Positions 249 through 14,708 of a stretch of DNA of 40,940 nt are shown piece after piece; the first letter of the stretch is position 1; the number at the start of each line of letters is the position of its first letter. The stretch is taken from IMG/VR virus record IMGVR_UViG_3300040770_000209, positions 1-40,940 of that record. The stretch is one strand, 5' to 3'. The notes under the pieces are model-generated. The model was not told where the DNA came from, made no database searches, and saw only the letters and a program-made list of their open reading frames with translations. The translations under genes and the position numbers were made by a program. The stretch comes from a virus.

Positions 249-620
249 GGGGGTACACGGTTTTGACTGGATATAGTCGTAAATTGTAAGCATGTAGTGC
301 TAAATTGGAAGCACTTAAAACTATCTATTAAAACATTGAATTGACAACGATTATATCGTATCAGAAAATTTCCTTAATGAAAGCAGCGTGTCTGTTTTCG
401 AAGGAGAGGTTGCATTTGCCTAACAATTGTAAATGGTAGTAAACTACCTATGGTGTTGAAACACCAAAAAATACGTTTATAACGTGTTTAAATATATATA
501 GGTTGTTATAGATATGGAACCATAATCATCTTAAAAGGATTGCCAGTTTATGAATTGGATAAACATGTAGAAATCGTTGAAGAATATCTTAGGACAGGGG
601 TTCGAATCCCCTTACCTCCA
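249..620 (+). ncRNA. ssrA: Transfer-messenger RNA (tmRNA) with a noncanonical tag ending in VAFA
   Basis: tmRNA rescues ribosomes stalled on broken mRNA and adds a degradation tag. The 5' end GGGGGTA (249-255) pairs with TACCTCC (613-619), followed by discriminator A620; CCA is not encoded. The T arm has the loop TTCGAAT, and the conserved GTAAGCATG (287-295) and TAAACATGTAGAAA (560-573) stretches bracket the pseudoknot region as in Bacteroides tmRNA. An open tag frame ends at TAA 421-423. The most likely resume codon is GTA at 358, giving a tag of about 21 residues that starts VSENF and ends EGEVAFA. Most bacterial tags end ALAA; an AFA ending is known from mycoplasmas. The gene call is firm, the resume codon is inferred. 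Confidence 0.88.
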
Positions 621-737
621 AATTATCAAAATTAACTCACCTCCACGTGGTGATAATTGGAAACAGATAAAGCTGGCAAAGAAGTTAATAAAAGTGGAGA
701 TATTCGGTTTTTTCTAAATATACACATATTTATATGT

Positions 738-2896: not shown

Positions 2897-3575
2897 ATGA
2901 AAACAATTCATTTAGAAATCAGAGATGGTAACGGTGGGTCCGATGCAAAGCTATTAGTAACACAAATGCAAGACATTTACACTAAAACAGCTAAAATTAA
3001 CAATCTAGAATGTTCAATAGTTGACGTTAGAGATGGTTTTGTTCATCTATGTCTTTAGCGGTTCTGACCCAAAAAAAATATTTAATAATGAACAAGGTGT
3101 GCATTCTTGGCATCGAGTCCCACCAACAGAAAAAAAAGGTAGAGTTCATACAAGCTCCATAACAGTTGTTATTTTAGAAGATAATAACTATAAAGAGAAA
3201 AACCTTTCAACTAATGAAGTTAAAATCGAAACAACTAGAGGTCAAGGTCCAGGTGGTCAGCATCGGAATACCACAGATTCAACGGTTGTAATAACTCATG
3301 AATCCACAGGTATCAAAGTTGTTAGGAATGGAAGATGTCAACATAAGAACAAAGCTGAGGCTTTAATTGAATTAACCAAAAGAGTTAATGAATTTTATAG
3401 ATGTGGACATAATTCTATCGACATTGAACATCGAAGAGGTCAGATAGGTAATGGTGAAAGAAGTGATAAACGAAGAACATATCGTGTAAAAGATAATTCA
3501 GTCAGTGACCATATAACAAACAAAACAGCGTCACTAAAAGATATACTTAGAGGTAAAATAGAATTATTATCATAA
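2897..3575 (+). CDS. RF1-like peptide chain release factor lacking domain 1, expressed by +1 frameshift at UAG
   Basis: Class-I release factors read stop codons and hydrolyse peptidyl-tRNA. Frame 0 starts at ATG 2897 (MKTIHLEIRDGNGGSDAK, matching the start of RF1 domain 2) and stops at TAG 3056-3058 after codon 53. The +1 frame from AGC 3057 continues exactly where RF1 would (SGSDPKK...GVHSWHRVPPTE) to TAA 3573-3575. The joined product is 225 residues. PPT (75-77) matches the PxT motif by which RF1 reads UAG/UAA, GGQ (119-121) is the catalytic loop, and GERSDKRRTY with SDHITN is the domain-4 signature. The slip site CTT-TAG-C copies the RF2 frameshift site CTT-TGA-C with UAG in place of UGA. 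Domain 1 is absent, as in PrfH-type factors. No SD-like element precedes the site. Confidence 0.85.
3051..3059 (+). promoter_or_regulatory. Predicted programmed +1 frameshift site (CTT TAG C)
   Basis: Codons TGT-CTT-TAG followed by C. Slippage of tRNA-Leu from CTT to TTT skips one T and reads AGC next. The two frames join without loss or gain of conserved residues. Stop-codon context with a following C is the slow-termination context known from RF2. Confidence 0.75.
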
Positions 3576-5127: not shown

Positions 5128-5199
5128 GGTCTATTGGTCGAGTGGTAAGATAGTAGTCTCTAAAACTAAAGATGGTGGGTTCGAGCCCCACATAGACTA
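5128..5199 (+). tRNA. Amber suppressor tRNA (anticodon CTA, reads UAG)
   Basis: A full cloverleaf: acceptor GGTCTAT/ATAGACT (one G-U), D stem GTC/GAT with GTGG in the loop, anticodon arm GTAGT-CTCTAAA-ACTAA, T arm GTGGG-TTCGAGC-CCCAC, discriminator A. The loop CTCTAAA has U33 and A37, so the anticodon is CTA (5160-5162), complementary to UAG. Only the G27-A43 pair is off. Which amino acid it carries is not clear; the short D arm resembles Gln tRNAs but the acceptor does not settle it. It lies directly upstream of the hydrolase gene with an in-frame UAG at codon 3. Confidence 0.85.
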
Positions 5200-5212
5200 C
5201 AAAAAATAAGAT

Positions 5213-5284
5213 TCCGTGTTGTGGGTAACGGCAACTTAACCTCGAAAGCAGGGGGTGATTCTGGTTCGAATCCAGAGCACGGTA
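5213..5284 (+). tRNA. tRNA-like element without a readable anticodon
   Basis: Acceptor CCGTGT pairs with GCACGG and the T arm TCTGG-TTCGAAT-CCAGA is perfect, but the middle is unusual: GTTG/CAAC closes a D-like loop with no spacer from the acceptor, and the next stem ACCTC/GGGGT closes GAAAGCAG, with no U33. It sits between the suppressor tRNA and the hydrolase gene and could be a mimic or a processing signal. Confidence 0.45.
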
Positions 5285-5348
5285 CAAATTAACTTGACTT
5301 TTTAATTAAATGTCATATATTTATTATTAACAAACAAAAACAATAAAA

Positions 5349-5696
5349 ATGAAGTAGGTAAACGAAAAATTAAGGGTAGTTACAAGACGAGATTTAAATC
5401 TTGCACATCAAGCAGTTCAATCTGGACATGCAGCTATTGATTTTCAACATGAACACTTAGTTGAAGCAAAACAATGGCAAACACAATCAAATTATTTAGC
5501 ATTTTTAACGGTAAACGATGAACCAGAATTAATTAAATTAATTTCTAAGGCAATACTAATTGGTATAAAGCACACTATTTTTAGAGAACCAGATATAGGT
5601 AATCAAATAACAGCTGTAGCGTTTGAACCAAGTGATTTATCTAGGAAATTAACTAGTTCATGTAGTTTATTAGGGAAGGAGTTATCCAATGCTTAA
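5349..5696 (+). CDS. Peptidyl-tRNA hydrolase 2 family protein with in-frame UAG at codon 3
   Basis: PTH2 enzymes cleave the peptide from peptidyl-tRNA that dropped off ribosomes. The frame starts ATG AAG TAG GTA (5349-5360) and then runs open for 112 codons to TAA 5694-5696. The product after the UAG matches PTH2: LRVVTRRDLNLAHQAVQ, SGHAAIDFQHEH, SNYLAFLTV, FREPDIGNQITAVAFEPSD and RKLTSS. There is no ATG, GTG or TTG in this frame after the UAG and before the conserved core, so synthesis needs UAG decoding. The suppressor tRNA (5128) is 150 bases upstream. A weak promoter (TTGAC at 5292, TATATTTA near 5323) would give a short leader starting at this ATG. The stop overlaps the next gene's ATG by eight bases. 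A sequencing error is the alternative. Confidence 0.82.
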
Positions 5697-5952
5697 TATA
5701 TCAATACAAAAAAGAACTGATATTATTTTACACTTTAATAAAATGCATTTACAAGATGCTAACATCCCAATGTGGGTAATTAAAGCTAAAGGTCAGACAT
5801 ATTATGTAAATCATGTTGATATGGATTCTGGAATTGGTTTTTCAACAAAAGAAACACCAGATAATCCATCAACAAAGGGTTCATTAAAATTTAAAGGTAA
5901 GTTAGATATAACTGATGAAAATAATACCGTAAACGCAAGGATTTACGGTTAA
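5689..5952 (+). CDS. Hypothetical protein coupled to the hydrolase gene
   Basis: An 87-residue protein whose ATG (5689) overlaps the end of the hydrolase gene (ATGCTTAA), a layout that normally means translational coupling. Content such as PMWVIKAKGQTYYVNHVDMDSGIGFSTKETPDNPSTKGSLKFKGKL suggests a small beta-sandwich; similar small proteins occur in large phages without known function. Its coupling means that failure to read through the UAG in the hydrolase gene could also reduce this product. Confidence 0.55.
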   Translation: MLNISIQKRTDIILHFNKMHLQDANIPMWVIKAKGQTYYVNHVDMDSGIGFSTKETPDNPSTKGSLKFKGKLDITDENNTVNARIYG

Positions 5953-5957
5953 AACAA

Positions 5958-6026
5958 GGCGAGGTAATCAAATGGTAGGTACAGTTTTGAAAGACTGGTA
6001 TGTTGGTTCGAATCCAGCCCTCGCCT
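5958..6026 (+). tRNA. Atypical tRNA, probably Ser-like (TGA) with an expanded or shrunken anticodon loop
   Basis: Acceptor GGCGAGG/CCTCGCC is perfect and the T arm GTTGG-TTCGAAT-CCAGC is good. The anticodon arm reads CAGT-TTTGAAAG-ACTG (8-base loop) or CAGTT-TTGAAA-GACTG (6-base loop); neither is the standard 7. The tRNA-Ser at 14067 has the same arm without the extra G (ACAGT-TTTGAAA-ACTGT). Anticodon is therefore uncertain. No long variable arm, which argues against true Ser identity. Confidence 0.5.
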
Positions 6027-6029
6027 CTG

Positions 6030-14621: not shown

Positions 14622-14708
14622 ACTATGCTTGACTGAGTGGCCTAAAGTGACTCCCGTTAAAAGGAGTGCCCTGTAAAGGGGCCGTAGGTTCGAATCCTAC
14701 ACATAGTC
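14622..14708 (+). tRNA. Type II tRNA, probably Leu (TAA) with an 8-base anticodon loop
   Basis: Acceptor ACTATG/CATAGT, D arm like Ser/Leu tRNAs (CTGAGTGGCCTAAAG), anticodon arm ACTCC-CGTTAAAA-GGAGT, variable arm CCC/GGG, T arm GTAGG-TTCGAAT-CCTAC. The loop has eight bases; with U33 placed normally the anticodon is TAA (Leu). TTA (an ochre reader) would put G at position 33 and is less likely. A homopolymer error in AAAA would also explain it. Confidence 0.55.

Follow-up and report, generated by a model that had tools for sequence, protein, structure and literature searches.

Many large phages probably gate a peptidyl-tRNA hydrolase gene with an amber codon and a nearby UAG-reading tRNA

A tRNA with anticodon CUA precedes a PTH2 gene with an amber third codon

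We analysed a 40,940-base virus record from IMG/VR. The whole stretch (G000) is called the window here. It is probably an incomplete piece, as no end repeats are reported. The features discussed are collected in Table 1. A preliminary description, made from the sequence alone, had noted a full tRNA with anticodon CTA. Both ARAGORN and Rfam identify this canonical tRNA. The ARAGORN label for it, tRNA-Pyl, denotes the anticodon CTA and nothing more. Judged by its sequence, the tRNA is a candidate amber suppressor, presumably charged. Two other tRNAs of the window have odd anticodon loops, of 6 bases ("ga", 5958–6027) and 8 bases ("ttaa", 14622–14708).

Table 1. Features of the window discussed in the text
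Feature	Position	Strand	Basis
tmRNA gene, same translation-rescue set	249–621	+	ARAGORN, Rfam
RF1-like release factor gene without domain 1, split over two frames	2897–3575	+	Pfam RF-1, PCRF
CTT TAG C, where the RF1-like gene presumably shifts frame by +1	3053–3059	+	Likeness to prfB
Candidate amber suppressor tRNA, anticodon CUA (5160–5162), CCA not encoded	5128–5200	+	ARAGORN; Rfam RF00005, 58.1 bits; drawn structure
Degenerate tRNA-like element between suppressor tRNA and PTH2	about 5211–5283	+	ARAGORN at relaxed threshold only; weak in Rfam
PTH2-type peptidyl-tRNA hydrolase gene, frame open only with UAG read	5349–5696	+	ORF, Pfam, predicted fold
In-frame UAG at the third codon; next base a purine	5355–5357	+	Kept in relatives
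87-aa gene, family not assigned	5689–5952	+	8-base overlap with PTH2 end

The PTH2 gene had been placed 150 bases behind the tRNA. The order is right; the gap to the ATG is 148 bases and holds the degenerate tRNA-like element, whose counterpart in the near-relative L008 is called tRNA-Leu. The gene starts ATG AAG TAG GTA AAC and is then open to a TAA at 5694–5696. Scanning the frame behind the UAG revealed no in-frame ATG, GTG or TTG. Hence, the earlier claims of an intact frame and of no alternative start before the conserved core both stand, as does that of an adjoining gene at 5689. The overlap with this gene looks conserved among close relatives. The preliminary description had supposed that the adjoining gene would be gated too; from its 8-base overlap with PTH2, it may be.

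Several lines of evidence identify the product. Downstream of the UAG, the translated sequence matches Pfam PTH2 (E 6e-7). The PF01981 profile matches 18 of 18 aligned members, and the window protein lies above the cut-off. Comparison of profiles with solved structures also returned PTH2. The fold predicted for the window product (pLDDT 92.4) is that of PTH2, with Foldseek E values of 4e-8 to archaeal Pth2 and 1e-7 to human Pth2. Archaeal and human Pth2 and related proteins make up the best 14 PDB matches (TM 0.6–0.8). In the EPD...T motif, Asp and Thr are invariant or nearly so. The catalytic Lys of the GK..AQ motif in cellular PTH2 is not evident in the phage proteins. Sequence family and predicted fold nonetheless suggest hydrolase activity. 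In the predicted structure, the position of the UAG falls outside the folded domain, and relatives without the UAG begin right at the first strand.

The amber codon and the CTA tRNA in related phages

We gathered PTH2 relatives from IMG/VR and annotated phages, giving 69 non-redundant genes. An in-frame amber codon is present in 27, a further five are from mycobacteriophages and 37 have none. In 23 of the 27, the amber is at codons 2–6 with no usable start behind it. These are the window, L003, L004, L005, L007, L009, L010, L011, L013, L014, L016, L017, L021 (LR756500), L022 (LR756501), L023 (LR745206), L026 (Tenacibaculum phage pT24), L049 (LR756504), L050 (LR756511), L172 (Pectobacterium phage CBB), L174 (Acinetobacter phage ME3), L178, L179 and L180. 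Their PTH2 identity to the window reaches down to about 25%. One gene, L015, has an ATG behind the amber. The other three differ in layout: in L204 and L214 an upstream ORF reads via the UAG into PTH2, while L216 carries its UAG within the gene, at the F(R/K)EPD motif. An additional amber lies further inside L022 and L178, at about residues 32 and 36. None of these loci has UAA or UGA in the start-proximal place; it is always UAG.

The amber is kept in all 18 non-mycobacterial PTH2 genes of the window's clade. On the PTH2 tree, presence of the UAG requires 8 changes, compared with 21.6 in shuffles, and at least three changes are forced. Among seven relatives compared with the window, all retain the UAG, and four-fold degenerate sites agree at only 29–48%. 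Synonymous sites are thus near saturation, and a neutral trinucleotide would not have persisted. The near-relative L008 (G005) was discounted, being indel-ridden with one indel inside PTH2. No relative was found in GTDB genomes.

The mycobacteriophage genes nest within the window's clade. They read ATG-TAG-GTG in RoMag and Cane17, and GTG-TAG-GTG in Myrna, Phabba and ScoobyDoobyDoo; this start region is common to 189 records. A separate Shine-Dalgarno sequence lies 7 bases upstream of the GTG that follows the UAG, so PTH2 can start at this GTG. For this reason, we did not count mycobacteriophages as UAG-dependent. RoMag also has a gene for an RF-1-domain protein of 141 aa (L249, 116589–116777), possibly an ArfB-like rescue factor.

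The preliminary description had proposed looking in homologues for a UAG at the equivalent place with a CTA tRNA beside it. This arrangement recurs across phages. Homologues that start after the UAG, which it had named as evidence to the contrary, are confined to the mycobacteriophages and possibly L015.

Could PTH2 be translated without decoding the UAG? Conceivably, ATG-NNN-TAG is a two-codon minigene and PTH2 re-initiates at a weak start behind the UAG (ATT, GTG or ATG). Peptidyl-tRNA lost from the minigene would then be the substrate of the enzyme, and the leader would sense hydrolase activity. Lambda bar minigenes affect cells in which Pth is limiting, and they share with the PTH2 loci a tiny ATG-NNN-stop frame tied to peptidyl-tRNA hydrolase. 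Regulation by a minigene has also been described in axe-txe (PMC8708949). The distance of 1–5 codons fits this explanation. So do the ATT that follows the UAG in many loci and the well-placed Shine-Dalgarno of the mycobacteriophage GTG. Moreover, drop-off is frequent during early elongation in E. coli, and Met-Lys-tRNA is among the species with higher rates (PMC10192219). However, codons that are not starts follow the UAG in the window and L009 (GTA), L010 (ACG), L016 (AGA), L017 (AAC), CBB (AAT), L178 and L180 (AAA) and L050 (GTT). Unlike lambda bar minigenes, the short ATG-NNN-TAG stretch shares the reading frame of the hydrolase gene and belongs to it. The second ambers in L022 and L178, and the internal one in L216, cannot be minigenes. 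Re-initiation also leaves unexplained why UAA and UGA are never used at the site and why a CTA tRNA is nearby. We consider it unlikely.

A CTA tRNA lies near PTH2 in 23 of the 27 amber loci, at distances of 0.1–8 kb. For 21 of them it falls inside the fetched locus; in CBB it is within 4 kb, and in LR756511 at about 8 kb. For G001, G002, G003, pT24, RoMag and Myrna, the sole CTA tRNA in the scanned sequence is 0.14–2.6 kb from PTH2. The chance of such closeness is about 1.5e-7, counting one genome per clade. The tRNA bodies are highly diverse, and some have long variable arms. This suggests that the anticodon is conserved, not an isoacceptor. The nearest isotype gave no amino acid assignment for these diverse bodies.

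A canonical CTA tRNA was not found in four UAG-bearing loci: LR756504, LR745206, and L013 and L017, which are fragments. Candidates from a pattern search in LR756504, LR745206 and the fragments proved on inspection to be Arg or Leu tRNAs. The same 8-base anticodon loop, ATTCTAAC, occurs in tRNAs of LR756504 (L265:2445–2520) and the L017 contig (G013, L288:19035–19108). It is only a suggestion that this loop might present CUA. Conversely, more than 20 related PTH2 genes without the UAG (mostly L183–L218) have a CTA tRNA just downstream. The pairing of the genes is hence wider than the gate. At these ungated genes, either the tRNA serves a different function or a former gate has disappeared. In L044/L190, also without the UAG, the adjoining tRNA carries an opal anticodon, TCA, in place of CTA (5421–5493 in L044).

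Both sets of exceptions would fit leakage by the host. Here, near-cognate host tRNAs would read the UAG at a constant low rate, so that little enzyme is made, and the CUA tRNA would be incidental or have other targets. Against this stand the CTA tRNA at most UAG loci, its position beside PTH2 where a genome has only one, and the exclusive use of UAG at the start-proximal place. Such leakage is quite improbable as the whole explanation, although it may operate at the four UAG loci without a recognisable CTA tRNA.

Jumbo phage XacN1 provides a further comparison. Like the phages with an amber PTH2, it has CUA tRNAs, two in number. Its authors sought readthrough targets for them and found none (PMC5852040). 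In the part examined, the PTH2-like ORF364 of XacN1 lacks the UAG. Hence, the PTH2 gate does not explain XacN1.

UAG usage elsewhere in these genomes

We next consider UAG outside PTH2. Among the AT-rich genomes, the share of called genes ended by TAG is 7% in the window, 7–9% in G001–G003 and 12% in pT24; in mycobacteriophages it is 29–40%. Within ORFs of at least 200 aa, TAG accounts for 0.02–0.07% in the window, G001–G003, pT24, LR756504 and LR745206, versus 1.33% in Lak. UAG is thus not a sense codon genome-wide, as it is under code 15.

To find comparable genes, we scanned for an ATG, 0–5 codons and a stop at the head of a gene without a later start. This was preferred to an all-frames readthrough blast, which is swamped by shadow frames. 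PTH2 is the sole case in the window and the sole case common to G001–G004; in G001 and pT24, no other case has TAG. Because it is the only one that relatives share, and is kept in every non-mycobacterial relative of the clade, the amber of the window is more than chance.

Use of code 15 throughout, with the PTH2 UAG one of many, can therefore be rejected from TAG usage. A CTA tRNA is present, and recoding does occur in Lak phages and possibly in some rumen relatives, but here genes end in TAG and long ORFs contain almost none. We regard this explanation as highly improbable. A sequencing error or decaying gene might be suspected from metagenomic assemblies and from the indel in L008, but has a negligible probability, since assemblies made independently, and the isolates pT24, CBB and ME3, have the identical UAG, which excludes an assembly error, and reading frame and fold are under constraint.

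The surroundings of the codon were also compared. The base after the PTH2 UAG is a purine in 27 of 27 loci, not all of them independent, compared with 43–57% after ordinary TAG stops and 67–68% of sense codons. A purine after UAG is a favourable context for amber suppression. Where a Shine-Dalgarno sequence is seen (L014, L022, L050 and CBB), its spacing suits the ATG before the UAG.

A probable suppressor-dependent hydrolase and its translation-rescue context

The simplest description of the locus is as follows. Ribosomes would initiate at the ATG at 5349 and reach the UAG in a context that favours readthrough. There, either translation terminates or the neighbouring phage-encoded CUA tRNA inserts an amino acid. 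Only insertion yields hydrolase. Hence, output would track suppressor activity against RF1. With the UAG near the start, little would be lost when termination prevails. As the inserted residue would lie ahead of the first strand, any amino acid should be tolerated there. We put the probability that the phage suppressor decodes the UAG as sense, with hydrolase output following its activity, at roughly 0.6. The preliminary description had proposed that the suppressor gates synthesis of the hydrolase. Comparison across phages supports well both the need for UAG decoding and the association of the CTA tRNA with PTH2; the proposal need not extend to the mycobacteriophages, nor possibly to L015.

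The purpose that we favour for the gate is homeostasis. A suppressor would read past host and phage stops and so raise peptidyl-tRNA loss, which the hydrolase would relieve. The antidote would then be produced in proportion to its cause. Timing of expression, the purpose given in the preliminary description, is as simple and equally possible.

Known systems share parts of this arrangement. In code-15 phages, such as Lak and crAss-like phages, suppressor tRNAs recode late genes (PMC10879173 and work cited there). There too a phage CUA tRNA reads UAG as sense and could time expression. The PTH2 loci differ: the genome is not recoded, a single small translation-factor gene has the amber at its very start, and many unrelated phages are involved. 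Bacterial prfB, which encodes RF2, is autoregulated by a +1 frameshift. As in prfB, a stop near the start of a translation-factor gene would sense how that stop is decoded. Unlike prfB, PTH2 would use readthrough by a tRNA, not a frameshift, and the product is a hydrolase, not a release factor.

A closer counterpart of prfB is the RF1-like gene of the window, which uses UAG. In E. coli prfB, the frameshift site is CTT TGA C. The RF1-like gene has a CUU-stop-C slippery site and continues in the +1 frame. CTT TAG C is kept in L003–L006, L008, L061, L063 and L064; it is at another position in L073 and L076, and L075 has CTT TAA C. In every case, the stop in the slippery site is one read by RF1. 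Other phage RF1-like genes have an in-frame UGA: L007, L052–L060, L068–L070, L078 (LR756504), L079 (LR745206) and L080 (LR756501). One such UGA is at a conserved VSI-UGA-LTG, which corresponds to the position of the +1 shift. Neither LR756504 nor LR745206 is recoded for UGA overall.

The tmRNA of the window has an unusual tag, GSKLPMVLKHQKIRL. An HDV-like ribozyme (RF02682, 621–689) directly follows it, reminiscent of theta ribozymes beside phage tRNAs. Between 10590 and 37614 there is a dense RNA-repair set: a CCA-adding enzyme, two RNA ligases, RlaP, an AAA kinase with a tRNA-ligase-like part, PARP and NUDIX. Together, the RF1 site, tmRNA, CCA-adding and RNA-repair enzymes make a UAG-decoding circuit plausible in the window. 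Such a circuit would comprise the suppressor tRNA, the readthrough-dependent hydrolase as antidote and, in the group of the window, an RF1 whose synthesis depends on slow termination at UAG. It may stabilise UAG decoding at a given level during infection, though we offer this tentatively and think it somewhat doubtful. Several phages with a UAG in PTH2, including pT24, CBB and ME3, show no RF1-like gene of this kind. Hence, this RF1-like gene is not required for the PTH2 gate.

Full-text searches of the literature outside subscription papers and preprints revealed no earlier description of an amber codon in phage PTH2 or of its link to suppressor tRNAs; the novelty of the finding is thus provisional. 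The gate explains why annotations of pT24, CBB and ME3 place the PTH2 start downstream of the UAG, within the conserved core. We conclude that many large phages probably have an amber gate in PTH2 with a UAG-reading tRNA nearby, so that the hydrolase is made only with a working suppressor. Many large phages have suppressor tRNAs. PTH2 would be a single, concrete and repeatedly kept target for them in genomes that are not recoded, and its gate would tie suppression to peptidyl-tRNA recycling.
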